A stretch of DNA of 54,978 bases from a virus. Of the stretch, positions 2,934 to 54,978 are shown piece by piece. The notes below the pieces were generated by a model that was given only the letters and a program-made list of their open reading frames with translations, did no database searches and had not been told where the DNA came from. The position numbers and the translations under genes were made by a program. Each line of letters opens with the position of its first letter. Position 1 is the first letter of the stretch. The stretch is from positions 1-54,978 of the IMG/VR virus record IMGVR_UViG_3300048839_001570; one strand, 5' to 3'.

Positions 2934-3896
2934 ATGGCCCAGCACTTCCTCCTTTCCGCCGCAGCCCGGACCCTCAAGCTCCGCGACGTGTACCGCATGT
3001 CCGACGAGCAGGCGTTCGACGCGTTCAAGGCGATCCGCTTTGCGGAGAACGGCGGGGAAGCGTTCTGCCCGGAGTGTGGGTGCTGCGATCCCTACTTCAT
3101 CGCCACGCGCCGCAAGTGGAAGTGCCGCGCCTGCGGCAAGCAGTTCAGCGCCACCAGCGGGACGATATTCGCCTCCCGCAAGATGGCGTTCGTGGACCTG
3201 CTCGCGGCGATCTGCATCTTCACCAACTGCGCCAAGGGCATCTCGGCGCTCCAGCTCTCCCGCGATCTGGATTGCCAGTACAAGACCGCGTTCGTCCTGG
3301 CGCACAAGCTCCGCGAGGCGATGGCGAAGGGCAATGACGACGTGACGCTTTCCGGCACGGTCGAGATCGACGGCGCGTACTTCGGCGGGCACGTCCGCCC
3401 GGAGAACCGCAAGGAAGATCGGAAGGACCGCCGCCTGTCTGAGAACCGCGACCCGGATCGGCGCGTGGTCGTCGTGCTTCGCCAGCGCAAGGGCCGCACC
3501 CTGCCGTTCGTGGTGCCCCGCGAGGCCGAGGGAGCCGCCATCGTCCGCGAGCGCGTCGCTCCCGGCACCGAGCTACATGCGGACGAGGGGCCTCATTGGG
3601 ACGCGCTGGAGGCCCATTACGCAGCCCGGCGGATCAACCACGGCGAGGCGTATAGCTGGGACGGTGCCTGCACCAATCAGGCCGAGAGCTACTTTGCACG
3701 CCTGCGCCGCGCCGTGGTCGGGCAGCACCACCACGTCTCGCACCGCTACCTGCACCAGTACGCGAACGAAGCCGCTTGGCGTGAGGATCACGCCCGCACC
3801 GCCAACGGCACGCAGCACCGGAACGTGCTGACGGCAGCGCTGCACTCGCCGGTCAGCCGCCAGTGGAAGGGATACTGGCAGCGGGCGGCGGCTTAG
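2934..3896 (+). CDS. IS1595-family DDE transposase
   Basis: 320 residues with an N-terminal zinc ribbon (CPECGC near residue 45 and CRACGKQF near 65), then the IS1595 DDE domain: EIDGAYFGG holds the first Asp, LHADEG the second, and TNQAESYFARLRR the glutamate region. It looks full-length and intact. The ATG at 2934 is chosen because the zinc-ribbon homology begins soon after. Its TAG overlaps the TAA of the convergent methyltransferase, so a simple element end cannot lie directly downstream. No terminal inverted repeats were found nearby. Confidence 0.9.
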   Translation: MAQHFLLSAAARTLKLRDVYRMSDEQAFDAFKAIRFAENGGEAFCPECGCCDPYFIATRRKWKCRACGKQFSATSGTIFASRKMAFVDLLAAICIFTNCAKGISALQLSRDLDCQYKTAFVLAHKLREAMAKGNDDVTLSGTVEIDGAYFGGHVRPENRKEDRKDRRLSENRDPDRRVVVVLRQRKGRTLPFVVPREAEGAAIVRERVAPGTELHADEGPHWDALEAHYAARRINHGEAYSWDGACTNQAESYFARLRRAVVGQHHHVSHRYLHQYANEAAWREDHARTANGTQHRNVLTAALHSPVSRQWKGYWQRAAA

Positions 3897-5790: not shown

Positions 5791-8778
5791 CTACGGAGCC
5801 AGGGCAATCGTGAACGCGACCCACGTATCCGTCGCCATCGTGCCGAAGGCGGCCGGGTCGTAGGTCGCCACCTCGTCGAACCGCATCGCCGCCGCCACGC
5901 TCGCGCCGCCGGTCCCGGCCGCAACCTGCGGGTAGAAGTCGTAGCAGCCGATTGGCCCGGCGCCCGGGACCGCCGTGCTGTCCGCCCCCATCACCGCGAG
6001 CCAGAGGTACTTCGCGCTGCCGCCCGAGGGCGAGAAGCTGGGGGCGTTGGCGGTCGTGCTCGATCCCGTCGCGGACGTGCTGACCTGGATGGAAGACGCG
6101 CCGTGGAAGCTCATGGCGATGTGCGACGACTGCTCCGAGGCCGAGGTCGTCAGGGTGAGCGTGTCGCCCTCCTCCGCGATCTTCGAGACGATGGTGAGCC
6201 GGTTGTTGGAGCCGTTCGCTGCGCTCGCGTTGATGGTCCAGCCCGAGGAAGACGCCCCGGTGTTGATCGAAACCGTCGCACTGCCGTCGCTGGAGAGCCC
6301 GATTACCATGAGTTCCCCGGGCACGATGAGCGGCAGCGTGATCGGGTGCGACGTGGTGTTCGAGGCCCCGGTGCGCCCGCGCGCCATCTCGCGCAAGCTC
6401 GGGAAGCCGTACATGTTCGGCATCCGCATCCAGCGCGGCTCGACCGTCGAGAAGGTCGTATTCGGCGTGTAGACCGACGGGCCGTCGTCCTCGAAGGCCG
6501 CCGGGTCCGAGACGAAGTAGCCTGGCGCATCCATCCCGCTCAGGTAGCGGTTGTTGATGACGTCGTTCCCGACCGTCGTCTCGTTCCAGTAATCGCTGTC
6601 GCCGTCGTAGAATTCGTGCGAGCTTTCGCAGACCGGGGCGGGCACGCCGAAGCGGTAGTAGTTCGTATCCCCGGTGTGGAAGACGATGTTTTCCTCGACC
6701 AGCACCTCGTCCGCGTTGTCGAGATAGATCTGGATCGAATAGTTATCCCACACGATGTTTTCGCGCGCGGTCGTGCCGGTGGTGGAGAGGATGCCGATCC
6801 CCTCGCCCCAATTCTCGTGCACGAGGTTCTTCTCGATCAGGCTGTCGCCGCGGAAGTCGCCGAAGATGCCCCGGCCCCACCCGCTCTGCCCGACCGCGCC
6901 GGCCGTCCAGTCCGCGTTCCGGTTCTCGACCGTGTTGTGGTGGATCCGGTTGTAGCGGACCGTCCAGCCCGCGCCGCGGGTCTGTCCGCCGCCGGTCGAG
7001 TAGTCCATGGAGAAGGCGCCGTCGAGGAAGTAGCAGAACTCGTTCCCCTCCACGACGAGGTTCTGGGCATTGTCGCCGTAGAAGCCGAAGCGACAGCCGC
7101 CGTCGTCGATGAACTTGAAACCGCGGATTTCGATGTTGTCGGCGGTGCGGAGCTGGAGCATGTCCGCGCCGGTCAGGCTGCGCGCGTCGAACGTCACCTG
7201 TTCGCCCGGGTAGGCGATCACCTTGGTCTTGTTCGATGAGTTGGAGCCCGACCATCCGCTGATCGACTGCGCGCTCGTGTAGGTGCCCTTGCGGACCGCC
7301 ACCACGTCGCCGGCCGAGACGGAGGTTCCCGAGAACGCGGCGTCGCTCGAGACGGTCTTGTTCACCGCGTAGACGCAGACGGGGATCGTCACGCTGTCCG
7401 AGCCGAGCCCGTTTTCGGCCGTGACGGTGATGGTGGTCCAGTCGAAGGCGCTCGTGGTGGGCACCGAGACGACGCCCGTAGACGAGTTGATCGTGATGCC
7501 GGTGGAGCCGACGCCAGAGACGGAGAACTCCAGCTCGTCGCCGTCGAACATCGAGGCCGTGGCGAAGGTCTGCGTGCCCATGCCGGTCACGTAGTAGACC
7601 GCGGGCATGTAGGAGAGGTAGGCCGCGGGCGCCTCGGTCGCGCCGACCTGGTACGGCGTCTGGTTGAACTCGGAAATGTCGAAGGTGCCGTCTGTCGAGA
7701 GCCAATCGCCGCAGGTAATGTTCACGTACATGTCGGTGATCGCGAAGCTGATCGCCGTCGTGCTCGCGTAGTTGGTCCAGTTCTCGCCGTCCGTGGACCA
7801 GTCCATGTAGACCGTCCCGTTGTCCTCGTGGATGCGCTGGTAGGCATGGGTCGCCGGGGCGTAGGTGACGTTCTTGCGGAGCTGCGTGTTGACGCCGCCG
7901 ATCTGGTAGTCCGCAATGAGCGTTCCGTCGTCGATGCCGAAGCGGATGCGGTCGGCGCCGCTCGTGCCCTGCCGCTCTAGCGAGATGATGCCGTTCTTGC
8001 TCTCCAGCGCGTTCGTGCGTGTGAAGCCGAAGCGCCAGGCAACGACCGAGTTGGTCAGGTCCCATGTGCTCACAGCCGAAGCCATGCCGCCGGCATAGTC
8101 GTTCCGGCAGGGAATTTTCGCGATGCCGCCCGAGACGGTGACGGTGCCCGTGTAGCCGCTCGTGCTCCATTTCGCGCCGTCAAGGCTCGAGCCGGGGAAC
8201 AGGTCGGTGAAGTTCTGGAAGGCGTCGGCGGGGATCTCGGGGGCGGCCTCGGCGGAGATCGTGGGCGCCTGCGCCGCGATGGCGAGCGCCGCGGCGGGAA
8301 CCTGTACGCTGCCGCCCGTAGCAACGGCGGGCACGGGAGCGGCTACGGCGAGCGAGGCAACCGGGACCTGTACGCTGCCGCCCGTCGCGATCGCGGGAAG
8401 CGGAGCAGCGATGGCGAGAGCTGCGACCGGAACCTGCGCGCTTGCGCCAGTCGCCACCGCAGGTGACGGAGCGGCAACGGTGAGGGCGGCCGTGGGAACG
8501 GCGATGTCCGCCGGCGCGACGGGCCGGAGAGCGATCACCTGGCCGGTGCCGTCGTCGAACTCATAGTCGACGCCGTTCGTCAGGGCGACGGTAGGCCCCG
8601 TGGACCTGAACCAGTCCGACGAGCCGACCTCCCGGTAGAAGATCGCCCGCGGCTGCACGCCGTCGTCGAACTCGTAGGTCTCGCCGGCGTCGAGCCCGGA
8701 GATCTGGAACGGCGCCTCGCCGACAACCCTCAGCCACGGGCCGGCGCTGCCCTGCACCCGGTAGAAGACACTACGCAT
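5791..8778 (-). CDS. Tailspike with parallel beta-helix, probable receptor-binding or depolymerase protein
   Basis: 995 residues. Two N-terminal copies of a roughly 40-residue module (YRVQGS..YEFDDG and YREVGS..YEFDDG) are followed by four Ala/Val/Pro-rich repeats of about 22 residues (residues ~95-185), a lectin-like region, an Ig/cadherin-like domain and a right-handed beta-helix with repeated N-I-V/N-E-F/N-R-I turns (~520-740), then a beta-rich C-terminal domain. Such helices in phage tails often bind or cleave surface polysaccharide; no catalytic residues can be assigned. Last late gene of the prophage. Confidence 0.75.
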   Translation of the reverse strand: MRSVFYRVQGSAGPWLRVVGEAPFQISGLDAGETYEFDDGVQPRAIFYREVGSSDWFRSTGPTVALTNGVDYEFDDGTGQVIALRPVAPADIAVPTAALTVAAPSPAVATGASAQVPVAALAIAAPLPAIATGGSVQVPVASLAVAAPVPAVATGGSVQVPAAALAIAAQAPTISAEAAPEIPADAFQNFTDLFPGSSLDGAKWSTSGYTGTVTVSGGIAKIPCRNDYAGGMASAVSTWDLTNSVVAWRFGFTRTNALESKNGIISLERQGTSGADRIRFGIDDGTLIADYQIGGVNTQLRKNVTYAPATHAYQRIHEDNGTVYMDWSTDGENWTNYASTTAISFAITDMYVNITCGDWLSTDGTFDISEFNQTPYQVGATEAPAAYLSYMPAVYYVTGMGTQTFATASMFDGDELEFSVSGVGSTGITINSSTGVVSVPTTSAFDWTTITVTAENGLGSDSVTIPVCVYAVNKTVSSDAAFSGTSVSAGDVVAVRKGTYTSAQSISGWSGSNSSNKTKVIAYPGEQVTFDARSLTGADMLQLRTADNIEIRGFKFIDDGGCRFGFYGDNAQNLVVEGNEFCYFLDGAFSMDYSTGGGQTRGAGWTVRYNRIHHNTVENRNADWTAGAVGQSGWGRGIFGDFRGDSLIEKNLVHENWGEGIGILSTTGTTARENIVWDNYSIQIYLDNADEVLVEENIVFHTGDTNYYRFGVPAPVCESSHEFYDGDSDYWNETTVGNDVINNRYLSGMDAPGYFVSDPAAFEDDGPSVYTPNTTFSTVEPRWMRMPNMYGFPSLREMARGRTGASNTTSHPITLPLIVPGELMVIGLSSDGSATVSINTGASSSGWTINASAANGSNNRLTIVSKIAEEGDTLTLTTSASEQSSHIAMSFHGASSIQVSTSATGSSTTANAPSFSPSGGSAKYLWLAVMGADSTAVPGAGPIGCYDFYPQVAAGTGGASVAAAMRFDEVATYDPAAFGTMATDTWVAFTIALAP

Positions 8779-9478: not shown

Positions 9479-9895
9479 TCAGCCCTGCGCCGGGGTCGTC
9501 TCGGAAAGTGGCATGATGCCGCCCGACATCATGCCCGACGGCGCGCGCGGCTCGGCCGGGGGCACGGGCCTTGCCTCGGCCTCCATCGCCCTGCGGACGT
9601 CTTCCTGCGCCTGCTGGACGATGTTGCGCATCTCCTCCTCGGAGTAGGTACCGCTGTTGCCGGTGAGCAGGACCAGGAGCGCGGTGAAGAGGCCGCCGAC
9701 CATGGCCGCGATTGCGCCGGCGATCATCTCGGGGCTCGGGGGCGGGAACACTCCCACGCCGGTCGCGGCGTCGACCGTCGCGACCGCCACGCCCCAGAGG
9801 ACGAGCGTGACGGCGGCCGTCGACATCGTGGCGCCGAGCAGCGCGTTCCAGAACTTCTCGTAGCCGCGGGCGGCGTTCACGAACCGCGAGATCAT
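9479..9895 (-). CDS. Holin-like two-TM membrane protein
   Basis: 138 residues with two hydrophobic helices (residues about 20-42 and 57-80) separated by a short Pro-rich loop, followed by a charged C-terminal tail with EEEMRNIVQQAQEDVRR. This topology and the position just downstream of the amidase fit a phage holin that permeabilises the inner membrane. No named holin family could be confirmed. Confidence 0.65.
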   Translation of the reverse strand: MISRFVNAARGYEKFWNALLGATMSTAAVTLVLWGVAVATVDAATGVGVFPPPSPEMIAGAIAAMVGGLFTALLVLLTGNSGTYSEEEMRNIVQQAQEDVRRAMEAEARPVPPAEPRAPSGMMSGGIMPLSETTPAQG

Positions 9896-50811: not shown

Positions 50812-51027
50812 TCACGCGGCGGCTCCCTGCGACGAGAACCATACCGACGCCGGAACACGGCCAGCTGTGGCCGCGTCGATCTTCCTAATCGTCTCGCGAC
50901 CCGGCTGCTTGGTCCCGTCCAGTATCTCCAGAAGGTACCGTCGCGAGATGCCAATCCTCTCGGCCACATCCGCCTTCGACGCGGAAGGCATCTCGGCATC
51001 GATCCATTGCTTGAGGGTCATCGGCAT
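50812..51027 (-). CDS. Cro-like HTH repressor
   Basis: 71 residues from ATG at 51027 (or 51021). HTH: SKADVAERIGISRRYLLEIL with DGTKQPGRETIRKIDAAT following, typical of XRE/Cro. The upstream ATG at 51045 is disfavoured because it lies inside the operator and upstream of the predicted transcription start; transcripts would then be nearly leaderless. Divergent from the repressor gene at 51123. Confidence 0.75.
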   Translation of the reverse strand: MPMTLKQWIDAEMPSASKADVAERIGISRRYLLEILDGTKQPGRETIRKIDAATAGRVPASVWFSSQGAAA

Positions 51028-51033
51028 GCGGGT

Positions 51034-51063
51034 TGTGTCGCACATAGCGACGGCATCCGTCAA
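51034..51063 (-). promoter_or_regulatory. Leftward early promoter with operator O1
   Basis: Minus strand -35 TTGACG (51063-51058), 18-base spacer, -10-like GACACA (51039-51034). Operator O1, TGTCGC-ACATA-GCGACG (51036-51052), covers spacer and -10, so repressor binding would block polymerase. Start of transcription near 51027. Confidence 0.6.
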
Positions 51064-51070
51064 GACGGAT

Positions 51071-51087
51071 TGTCGCCATTTTCGACA
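51071..51087. promoter_or_regulatory. Operator O2
   Basis: TGTCGC-CATTT-TCGACA: a 17-bp copy of the operator with one mismatch, 35 bp from O1 and 36 bp before the repressor ATG. It could let the repressor act cooperatively with O1 and control its own gene. Confidence 0.65.
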
Positions 51088-51122
51088 ACGCGGTTCGAGG
51101 CGGTGCGATAGAAACTTGGTTG

Positions 51123-51419
51123 ATGGGTGTGCGCATAAGAGAGTTCCGAGAGGCACAGGGGCTGAGCCAACAGGCCTTGGCACACAAGGCCGGTGTATCC
51201 CGGAGCTATCTGGCCGAGATGGAAAGCGGCGCGAAAGCGATCAACTCGCGCCGGCTCAAGGCGGTCGCCAACGCGCTAGGCGTCTCGGAGTCCGACCTGT
51301 TCATTGAGGATGCAGACCAGGCAAACCGCTTGGCGGAGCTCGTCGCTATTGCTCGCTCTGCTTCGGCCGAGGATCTTGACCAGATTCTCGGAGTGGCGAG
51401 GTTGACCTCCCGGAAGTAA
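51123..51419 (+). CDS. XRE-family lysogeny repressor (CI-type)
   Basis: 98 residues. HTH_3 domain at 5-58 (LSQQALAHKAGVSRSYLAEM, INSRRLKAVANALGV), then a short helical tail ELVAIARSASAEDLDQIL probably for dimerisation. No S24/LexA peptidase domain, so RecA-stimulated self-cleavage is unlikely. No Shine-Dalgarno is seen; GATAGA 10-15 bases upstream could give a leaderless mRNA. Confidence 0.8.
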   Translation: MGVRIREFREAQGLSQQALAHKAGVSRSYLAEMESGAKAINSRRLKAVANALGVSESDLFIEDADQANRLAELVAIARSASAEDLDQILGVARLTSRK

Positions 51420-51504
51420 TCTGACGCGCGGCGACGACCAGCGCTTCAAGGTCATCAGGGCTCAGCCGACGCGCGAGGGCGACCAGTTCGCTTAGCTTGG
51501 ACAT
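51346..51504 (-). CDS. Small ORF resembling the repressor tail, antisense to the repressor end
   Basis: 52 residues from ATG at 51504 with GGTGGAG 3 bases upstream. The first 30 residues (LSELVALARRLSPDDLEAL) closely resemble the C-terminal tail of the convergent repressor (LAELVAIARSASAEDLDQI). The last 24 codons overlap the repressor gene in antisense. It might bind and poison repressor dimers. Expression is unproven. Confidence 0.5.
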   Translation of the reverse strand: MSKLSELVALARRLSPDDLEALVVAARQITSGRSTSPLRESGQDPRPKQSEQ

Positions 51505-51599
51505 TCGCTCCACCCCTATACGATTTGACAACCATGGGATGCATAGCCGGCCGCGTCGCGAAGCGGCGCGGCGGCAGAAGTTACGCAGTTAATCCGCGC

Positions 51600-51616
51600 T
51601 GTCGCTATTCGCGACA
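51600..51616. promoter_or_regulatory. Operator O3
   Basis: Perfect dyad TGTCGC-TATTC-GCGACA, 33 bp upstream of O4 in the rightward operon control region. The 51420-51599 interval before it holds only the small antisense ORF. Confidence 0.7.
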
Positions 51617-51622
51617 AAAGGC

Positions 51623-51651
51623 TTGCGCGATCTGTCGCTATGTGCGACAAT
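51623..51651 (+). promoter_or_regulatory. Rightward promoter with operator O4
   Basis: TTGCGC (-35, 51623-51628), 17-base spacer, GACAAT (-10, 51646-51651). Operator O4 (51633-51649, perfect TGTCGC-TATGT-GCGACA) lies across spacer and -10. The layout copies the leftward promoter almost base for base. Confidence 0.65.
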
Positions 51652-51689: not shown

Positions 51690-52160
51690 ATGCTACGCAT
51701 CACCGCCGCCGCGCTCGTCGCGGCGATCAGCTTCGCCTTGCCCGCTGCGGCCTGCGTCTCGTCCGGGACGTGCAACGGCCTGCCCGGATGGGCTGCGAAC
51801 GAGTTCGCGCAGTCCGACAACTTCGCGACGGAGCGCGCCCTGACCGAGCGTTACGACGCCGCCCGCGCAGCGCACGGCCGCGCGTCGATCAACCTGCAGC
51901 GCCATCTCGACAGCCTGCCCTACGGCCCGCCCACGCCGGCGCAGTCGGCGCGCACCAAGCAGCTGACCGCCCTCAAGAACCAGGCGGCGCGGCGGCTGAA
52001 CGATGCGCACAACCTGCTGCTCGGCTCGAAGTCGGCGGCGGCGACCCGCAACCTGACGCCCAAGCAGCGGGTCGCGTTCAACGCCGGGTTCTACAGCGCC
52101 GACGATCCCCGGTGCACGGGCGGCTGCACCATCAGCGAGATCAACCGCTGGAATTCCTGA
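51690..52160 (+). CDS. Exported protein, unknown
   Basis: 156 residues with a cleavable signal peptide (MLRITAAALVAAISFALPAAAC). The mature part is helical with four Cys (ACVSSGTC, RCTGGC), suggesting disulfides in the periplasm. AGGAG lies 8 bases before ATG. First gene of the repressor-controlled rightward operon. Confidence 0.7.
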   Translation: MLRITAAALVAAISFALPAAACVSSGTCNGLPGWAANEFAQSDNFATERALTERYDAARAAHGRASINLQRHLDSLPYGPPTPAQSARTKQLTALKNQAARRLNDAHNLLLGSKSAAATRNLTPKQRVAFNAGFYSADDPRCTGGCTISEINRWNS

Positions 52161-53363: not shown

Positions 53364-53671
53364 CGACGCGGTGCATCACCTGCCAGGGCCACCCGCCGAG
53401 CGCGCTCGAGCAGGCGACCTTCGAGGCCCTGACTTGGGCGACCGCGCGCAACCGCGGCGCCCGCGCCCTCATCGGCGGCACCGAGCCGATGACCTGGTTG
53501 GCCGAGTCGTGCCACCTCGTCGGCGCCTTCGAGGGCGGCGGGCGCGCCGTCGCCACGATCCTTCCCCACGGCCAGCGCCTGTCGATCTCGGTGCAGGACA
53601 ATCCCGACATCCGCTGGGCGATGGACCTCGCCCTCCCGCAGGAGCTCCGCGTCGATGTCTGCCCGGACTAG
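53360..53671 (+). CDS. Hypothetical protein (103 aa)
   Basis: 103 residues from GTG at 53360. CITCQGH at the start and a late Cys (VDVCPD) could bind metal. Beta-rich C-terminal half. Its end overlaps the methyltransferase remnant by 17 bases. Confidence 0.55.
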   Translation: MTTRCITCQGHPPSALEQATFEALTWATARNRGARALIGGTEPMTWLAESCHLVGAFEGGGRAVATILPHGQRLSISVQDNPDIRWAMDLALPQELRVDVCPD

Positions 53672-54364
53672 ACCACCCCGCCCCGCGGGTCCGGTGGTGA
53701 TCCCGCCCCGCATCGCCGTCGCCCTGATGCTGATGGGTCAGGGGCGCGGCTCGACGGGCTCGGGGATGGACGAACCGCTGCCCACCGTGGTCGCCGGCAG
53801 CTACGTCAAACGGCCGGGCGGTGCGATCCCGCTGGGCATGGTCGCCGCCTTCCTCGCCCAGCACAACAACCACCGCGGCGCCGAGCCCTCCGATGGGCGG
53901 GACGTGGCACAGCCCCTCTCGTCGCTGACCACGAAGGGCGCGCAGCAGCAGGTGGTGATCGCCACGCTCGGGCGAGCGGAGGCCGAGGGCGCACGGCGGG
54001 TGGCAGCGTTCCTTCTGAAATATTATGGCACCGATCAGGATCCACGCCTCGACGAGCGATGCACACGGACACCACGAAGGACCGCTTCGGGCTCGTCACG
54101 GTCGAGATCGAGGGCGAGAGCTACGCCATCATCGACATCGGCATGCGCATGCTGACGCCCCGCGAGCGCTTCACGGCGCAGGGCTTCCCGCCCGAGTACC
54201 AGATTGAGACCGGCGTGGGGCAGAACGGCGAGCCGGTCTCAATGACGAGCGAGGTGCAGGGCCGGTGCTGCGGCAACAGCGTGTGTCCGCCGCTCGCCGC
54301 CGCCCTGGTGGCCGCGAACTGCGGCGATCTTGCCGCTCGCCCCATGGTCCACGCGGCTGAGTAG
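53655..54364 (+). pseudogene. C5-cytosine DNA methyltransferase remnant, 5'-truncated and frameshifted
   Basis: Two frames together give the C-terminal half of a Dcm-type enzyme: target-recognition region (MDEPLPTVVAGSYVK, RDVAQPLSSLTTKGAQ, FLLKYYGTDQDPRLDE) in frame one until about 54055, then MHTDTTKDRFGLVTV, MLTPRERFTAQGFPPEY (motif IX) and GNSVCPPLAAAL (motif X) in frame two from 54059. One missing base near 54056 explains the shift. Motif I, the catalytic PC motif and ENV are absent, so it cannot methylate DNA by itself. The downstream piece has its own ATG. Confidence 0.8.
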
Positions 54365-54368
54365 AGTG

Positions 54369-54500
54369 ATGAGCGAGGCGCGGAAAGAGAAGGAACATCA
54401 GCACGACCCGCTGCGCCCGGCGCGCGGAGTTGCCCTGGGCGTCTTCCTCGGCAGCTGCCTTTGGGCCGCTGGCATCGGCGCATGGTGGTTGCTCGGATGA
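54369..54500 (+). CDS. Single-pass membrane microprotein (43 aa)
   Basis: 43 residues: a charged N-terminus (SEARKEKEHQHDPLRP) and one C-terminal TM helix (VALGVFLGSCLWAAGIGAWW). Its TGA overlaps the ATG of the excisionase-like gene (ATGA), which supports real translation. Confidence 0.55.
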   Translation: MSEARKEKEHQHDPLRPARGVALGVFLGSCLWAAGIGAWWLLG

Positions 54501-54871
54501 AGGATGAACACGCCCCGGAGTCGCGCTTGCTGACCGTCGAGGAAGCCGCGAAGGCGCTGCACGCGACGGTGAAGGTCTCGGCGATCCGCGCGGCGATCCG
54601 CGAGGGCAGGCTGGCCTCGGTGCGGATCGGGCGCCGATACTACGTGACGCCCGAGGCTCTGAGGAGATTCGCGAAATGCCGCGTCGTCGAAAGCCGCCCC
54701 GCCTGTGGTGTCGACCCGACACCGGAGACTGGATCATCCTCGACGGAGGCCGCCAGCACCGGACGGGCGCTCGCGGAGCAGGCGGCGAGGATGCTGCGCG
54801 CCAGGCGCTCGCCACCTACCTCATCGGGAGCCAGCCGGCCCGCGTCGGCCCTGCCCAGCCGCACGAGATAA
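54497..54871 (+). CDS. Excisionase-like MerR/HTH_17 protein
   Basis: 124 residues; N-terminal winged helix LLTVEEAAKALHATVKVSAI, REGRLASVRIGRRYYVTPEA is the usual excisionase/HTH_17 form. The C-terminal half overlaps the integrase gene in another frame and looks non-conserved. Directly before int, so it probably directs excision. Confidence 0.75.
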   Translation: MKDEHAPESRLLTVEEAAKALHATVKVSAIRAAIREGRLASVRIGRRYYVTPEALRRFAKCRVVESRPACGVDPTPETGSSSTEAASTGRALAEQAARMLRARRSPPTSSGASRPASALPSRTR

Positions 54872-54978
54872 CCGTGGGCGAGGTGCTGGCGCTCTACGCG
54901 CGCGACCATGGGCACCTCGCCGGCGCGGAGACCCTCTCCTACTGCATCGACGCGCTCTCTCCGTTCTGGGGCGATCTC
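54676..54978 (+). CDS. Tyrosine-type phage integrase, 3'-truncated by window edge
   Basis: 101 codons from ATG at 54676 to the window end. The basic start MPRRRKPPRLWCRPDTGDW, the RTGARGAGGEDAARQALATY helix and ITVGEVLALYARDHG with LSPFWGDL are the arm-binding and core-binding N-terminal parts of alphaproteobacterial phage integrases. The catalytic RHRY domain lies beyond the window. Confidence 0.85.
   Translation, partial: MPRRRKPPRLWCRPDTGDWIILDGGRQHRTGARGAGGEDAARQALATYLIGSQPARVGPAQPHEITVGEVLALYARDHGHLAGAETLSYCIDALSPFWGDL

Follow-up and report, generated by a model that had tools for sequence, protein, structure and literature searches.

The locus described here raises two questions: whether a single short repressor controls both the leftward early genes and the rightward operon that carries xis and int, and how such a repressor could be removed upon DNA damage. 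The window, by which we mean the whole stretch of DNA analysed, is the IMG/VR record IMGVR_UViG_3300048839_001570, 54,978 bp long. The genes around the switch are as follows.

50812-51027, minus strand: cro-like helix-turn-helix (HTH) gene, starting at 51027 or 51021 (HTH_3, E 6.7e-05; phrog_35 transcriptional repressor, E 5.9e-05)
51123-51419, plus strand: short CI-type repressor of 98 aa, an HTH followed by a C-terminal helical tail (HTH_3, E 2.3e-17)
51346-51504, minus strand: mini-gene of 52 aa facing cI, a helical hairpin like the repressor tail and a candidate antirepressor
51690-52160, plus strand: first gene of the rightward operon, a predicted secreted protein with a signal-peptide-like start
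54497-54871, plus strand: excisionase-like HTH_17 gene (HTH_17, E 3.3e-09; phrog_66 excisionase, E 1.9e-05)
54676-54978, plus strand: N-terminal portion of a tyrosine integrase that runs off the contig, with tblastn matches in Rhizobium/Sinorhizobium phages

The cro-like gene leads the leftward early operon and is placed like the annotated Cro genes of Paracoccus phages. The repressor is 41-44% identical to those of Sulfitobacter and Paracoccus phages, and the HTH of SinR is among its closest solved relatives (E 4e-13). A Pfam search with the 98-aa protein returned HTH matches only, without any peptidase match of the S24 kind, and its AlphaFold model is poor (pLDDT 61). The same database gave no match for the 51690-52160 product. 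The integrase start was matched by tblastn in 11 Rhizobium/Sinorhizobium phage records (best E 2e-8), and the eight that are listed are all annotated as integrase; PHROG gave no match for this N-terminal part. Host DNA forms the left end of the record, where a TatC gene (80-703) is 66% identical to that of Gemmobacter; in a search of 289 alphaproteobacterial genomes no other match had an E of 1e-80 or less. Close relatives of the repressor, of the integrase start and of the first protein of the right operon were not found in IMG/VR. We also observed that a DNA methyltransferase at 53655-54364 is split across two frames, its ORFs matching adjoining parts of phrog_23072 (208-306 and 305-395); this gene is thus interrupted or frameshifted, and its beginning is missing.

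The putative operators of the two operons are these.

51036-51052: operator O1, TGTCGCACATAGCGACG, one mismatch to TGTCGC-N5-GCGACA
51071-51087: operator O2, TGTCGCCATTTTCGACA, one mismatch to the same motif
51600-51616: operator O3, TGTCGCTATTCGCGACA, exact
51633-51649: operator O4, TGTCGCTATGTGCGACA, exact

The original prediction of four 17-bp TGTCGC-N5-GCGACA sites was right about the place of all four and too generous about two of them, O1 and O2 being imperfect copies. At one mismatch or fewer, O1-O4 are the sole sites in the complete record, against 0.23-0.47 expected in Markov-simulated sequence, and the reversed control pattern had no match in the window at this threshold. With up to three mismatches the motif is found at chance level (67 sites vs 65 expected), so that only near-exact sites are informative. 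Read on the minus strand, O1 matches O4 at 16 of 17 positions. The first pair, with starts 35 bp apart, lies between the divergent cro (51027) and cI (51123); the starts of O3 and O4 are 33 bp apart. Each region holds two sites, a third one being absent at one mismatch or fewer. Candidate promoters sit on both pairs.

51058-51063, minus strand: -35 (TTGACG) of the leftward, pR-like promoter, between O1 and O2
51034-51039, minus strand: -10-like GACACA of the same promoter, overlapping O1, with 2 of 6 consensus letters
51623-51628, plus strand: -35 (TTGCGC) of the rightward, pL-like promoter, between O3 and O4, placed by alignment to relatives
51646-51651, plus strand: -10-like GACAAT of the same promoter, overlapping O4, with 4 of 6 consensus letters

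Spacing between the two hexamers is 17 bp in the rightward promoter and 18 bp in the leftward one. In each pair one site had been expected on the -10 and the other 33-35 bp upstream, which is what the offsets and the overlaps with O1 and O4 give: the -10 letters fall within the right half of O4 and, on the minus strand, within the right half of O1. The promoter layout claimed to be common to both modules is also there, with the -35 between the sites and the -10 taken from the right half-site of the downstream operator, the agreement of both -10 hexamers with the consensus being weak. For the rightward module of the window an automatic scan ranked another hexamer pair higher, and the alignment with relatives was used instead.

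This layout is repeated in relatives. L019, a prophage of Gemmobacter whose CI is of the full S24 type, carries four near-identical sites, at 7973 and 8007 in the cro-cI gap and at 9642 and 9676 ahead of the rightward operon, and its counterpart of O1, in the same place, is nearly identical (CGTCGCACATAGCGACA). Sulfitobacter phage pCB2047-A has a slightly altered motif at 5903 and 5947 in the gap and at 6475 and 6509 ahead of the rightward operon, so that the four-site layout is common to these two and the window. The right operon ends with annotated excisionase and integrase genes in pCB2047-A, with excisionase and integrase in Pthi1 and with integrase in Pkon1. Three clear sites, one by cro and a pair ahead of the right operon, were found in L055, and degenerate versions in L057. 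The right-operon pairs of L019, L062, L055, L057, L063, L101 and L115 are all 34 bp apart from start to start (33 in the window), and TTGAC-like hexamers lie inside the pairs of the relatives; the pair is more distant in Pkon1 (L063), about 2.4 kb past cI, and in L101, about 1.1 kb. No TGTCGC-type sites were found in L103-L106, and therefore the operator letters vary within the family and the repressors of these four loci must use others. Since relatives repeat the layout with its 34-bp step, O1/O2 are very probably the OR-like and O3/O4 the OL-like operator in an immunity region of lambda order that has a short CI repressor. As for the claim that one repressor serves both the early genes and int/xis, the operator letters speak in its favour, being the same on the cro-side promoter and on the promoter of the xis-int operon, and they suggest joint control.

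Paired palindromes of this kind were also searched for more widely. The pair pattern was found at 31 loci in IMG/VR, and by inspection only L019 shares the architecture of the window; in most of the remaining loci the sites form evenly spaced arrays with a period of 22-23 or 45 bp. Such TGTCGC-N5-GCGACA arrays occur in many IMG/VR contigs (L006-L035, for example L006:8200-8283 and L008:700-875). The array of L008 lies inside the gene for a product resembling a winged-helix replication initiator and encodes repeated LSQEAT-type peptides; the arrays look like iterons of an origin within the initiator gene, not repressor operators. Among 84,980 genomes the pattern gave 11 loci, and only L046, a Gemmobacter locus with the same prophage as L019, is of the same kind; L040 is a RelE-HTH module, and the rest look unrelated. 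In L040 a RelE-like toxin gene is followed by an HTH antitoxin gene, and the same operator pair is present (582-633), its sites spaced by 35 bp, with TTGACC inside the pair and GACAAT as the -10, nearly the layout of the window. A conserved 556-aa gene in two Acetobacteraceae genomes is preceded by an operator-like pair with a 32-bp step (L039:1975-2023 and L044:502-550), and no repressor is seen nearby; in Alkanindiges (L036:132-181) a ParA-like partition gene has a pair of the same palindromes about 65 bp ahead of it.

Between cI and O3/O4, on the strand opposite to cI, lies the mini-gene. It recurs in relatives of the window phage, although the annotations of pCB2047-A, Pkon1, Pthi1, Pben1 and Psul1 do not list it. 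In Pben1 (L131) the annotated p19 (7134-7472), on the opposite strand, covers the mini-gene start together with a LexA box, and p19 is probably not a real gene.

Alphaproteobacterial LexA sites read GTTC-N7-GTTC or GAAC-N7-GAAC, as given in PMC3091678 (see also PMC6473078). An exact box of this form stands at the cI/mini-gene junction, just past the cI stop and at the mini-gene start, in 15 of 25 non-redundant short-CI loci, with about 0.2 expected at a background rate of 0.8% per 200 bp; the scan covers the loci other than L053, L056 and L060. Among the named phages found by similarity the box is present in three of four (pCB2047-A, Pkon1 and Pthi1; not Rhizobium RHph_I1_23), and among full-length genome loci in 5/11 (L065-L069; not L070, L071 or L073-L076), some of the six box-less ones being not clearly phage. 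Nine full-length IMG/VR relatives were retrieved after the idea of the box had been formed, and seven of them have it (L100-L106; not L107 or L115), with some redundancy, the mini-gene peptide of L102 being identical to that of L055 and L106 being nearly L105. Pben1 and Psul1 both carry it. A box about 90 and 180 bp past the cI stop was seen in the partial genome loci L077 and L094, respectively, and none lay near the stop in any of 22 further IMG/VR loci with a partial match only. In the window itself no LexA box with two mismatches or fewer was found near the mini-gene (0/1). L115 resembles the window in this respect, with a facing hairpin ORF like the mini-gene (3301-3560) and no exact box; part of the family may therefore answer another signal.

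The Paracoccus phages provide a controlled contrast. According to PMC6536676, mitomycin C induces five of them, and only in Pyei1 is the repressor of the S24 type. Each of the remaining four (Pkon1, Pthi1, Pben1 and Psul1) combines the box with the facing mini-gene. Pyei1 has no junction box, its two boxes lying within the cI gene and further off, and the S24-type L019 has no LexA box at the junction either.

If LexA governs this transcript, it could act as RNA and not through its peptide. The mini-gene of the window enters the 3' end of cI for 74 bp on the opposite strand, so that SOS-driven transcription would oppose that of cI, as antisense RNA or by polymerase collision. The peptide itself argues against this. 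AlphaFold predicts from the single sequence two helices, residues 3-12 and 16-30, with a pLDDT of 91-96 over the hairpin block, and the hairpin resembles the repressor tail (SELVALARRLSPDDLEALVVAARQI vs AELVAIARSASAEDLDQILGVARLT). Nine mini-gene peptides aligned to nine repressor tails with an hhalign probability of 94.6% and E 7e-8; without the window E was 9.9e-8, against 1.3e-3 for the best of 60 column-shuffled controls. All-against-all scores between mini-genes and tails were 14 SD above those of shuffled peptides and also above the scores against the HTH part. Outside the cI overlap pN/pS was 0.26-0.49 in four comparisons, which points to a translated gene. We therefore regard an effect of the transcript alone, with an incidental peptide, as unlikely. 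The likeness between short hairpins could be generic. Coevolution of the mini-gene with its own repressor gave no signal (own-pair vs cross-pair similarity, p 0.25). The mini-protein had no PHROG or NCBIfam family match and no convincing sequence match among solved structures, Foldseek found nothing with the hairpin, and the nine mini-proteins gave no Pfam match to the SinI family up to E 5. Taking the operators and the mini-gene as a real, conserved gene together, we judge from comparative sequence data that both are likely to be correct.

Returning to the mini-gene product as an antirepressor, the switch might work as follows. The repressor from 51123-51419 would bind each 17-bp palindrome as a dimer. 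Within a pair, one dimer would cover the -10 and its partner would lie immediately upstream of the -35, so that both operons would be silenced, the leftward one for cro and replication and the rightward one with xis-int at its end. As this repressor carries no self-cleavage domain, its removal must go another way. In close relatives with the box, DNA damage would free the mini-gene promoter from LexA. The mini-protein would then pair with repressor subunits through their tails, in the manner of SinI and SinR, and such mixed pairing would break the operator-bound dimers and induce both operons at once. That the mini-gene product is an SOS-induced, SinI-like antirepressor in this family seems to us somewhat better than an even bet.

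It is conceivable that some of the sites are bound mainly by the Cro-like protein and not by CI, or that O1-O4 mostly serve Cro, as both are HTH proteins with genes beside the sites and lambda CI and Cro bind the same operators. However, the operator letters remain close where an S24 CI replaces the short one, and the recognition helix is similar in the two (SRSYL.E.E.GAK.IN in both), which makes a predominant role of Cro improbable; Cro may still bind the sites in second place. Comparably improbable is a mini-protein that acts as co-repressor, repressor stabiliser or dose-balancing decoy. A tail-like hairpin could well cap or bridge repressor dimers, and the window mini-gene has no SOS box; yet the boxes in 15 of the 25 loci mean control by damage, which is the reverse of the regulation that a maintenance factor would require, and the junction box is absent in both cases with an S24 CI, L019 and Pyei1. 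Cleavage of these repressors, by a protease of phage or host acting in trans or with RecA as for lambda CI, which PMC9044938 proposed for Sulfitobacter phages that it describes as inducible by mitomycin C, is very unlikely, given a window repressor without S24 domain and, according to PMC7305329 and PMC6536676, Sulfitobacter regulators without a peptidase domain and no S24 in four of the five Paracoccus repressors.

In summary, the operators are real and ordinary in kind, of lambda order, and they offer a clean case of lambda-order control in a phage unrelated to lambda. What is added is a candidate antirepressor, tail-like and facing cI within the immunity region, with a LexA box in most close relatives examined. 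We give an even chance to the full proposal: that in Rhodobacterales-type phages a LexA-controlled, HTH-less copy of the repressor tail facing cI is the missing SOS trigger, breaking dimers by mixed pairs and opening the OR- and OL-like operators together, and that the version in the window has lost or never had its SOS box and answers another signal. The mini-gene would then answer a question on the switch of Sulfitobacter phages, the proteins of which were not known to the authors of PMC7305329, and for which RecA cleavage had been put forward (PMC9044938). SOS induction of an alphaproteobacterial prophage group would be open to a direct test through a single small gene, and the response of a prophage to DNA damage could be predicted from sequence alone. 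Our search of the open-licence literature turned up no description of a tail-like antirepressor under LexA control for these phages.

Among known systems, the lambda immunity region is similar in having one repressor, a divergent cro and a second operator set beyond cI ahead of a xis-int operon (cro <- OR, cI ->, OL -> ... xis int). The original prediction had set the locus apart from lambda, where int would have separate control. This contrast was overstated: OL/pL of lambda is also under CI control and the pL transcript passes through xis and int, lambda adding the CII-dependent pI promoter. The differences lie elsewhere. Lambda has three sites per operator and the window two, which straddle the -35; lambda CI has a self-cleavage domain, whereas the short repressor of the window has no S24 domain; the operator sets are about 0.5 kb apart in the window vs about 2.4 kb in lambda; and the facing mini-gene is extra in the window. 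Rhizobium phage 16-3, whose C repressor acts at OL and OR, is likewise a phage of alphaproteobacteria whose two operator sets are separated, and its int N-terminus is like that of the window, but its operator letters are different. In Bacillus, SinR is a repressor with a helical tail opposed by the small, tail-like SinI. The mini-protein resembles SinI in being a small protein that looks like the tail of its partner repressor and differs from it in having no SinI family match; SinI is not known to be phage-encoded or LexA-controlled. Coliphage 186 Tum and phage N15 provide SOS/LexA-controlled antirepressors, for which we know of no resemblance to a repressor tail. In TF-smORF modules (Silpe 2023, PMC10432266) a small protein inactivates a phage repressor, and it is described there as driven by a neighbouring transcription factor, independently of SOS. 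Finally, Salmonella Gifsy GfoR/GfoA (Lemire 2011, PMC3121763) combine an uncleaved repressor with a small antirepressor under direct LexA control; the Gifsy antirepressor gene is described there as lying outside the immunity region, whereas the mini-gene of the window family lies inside it, faces cI and is tail-like.
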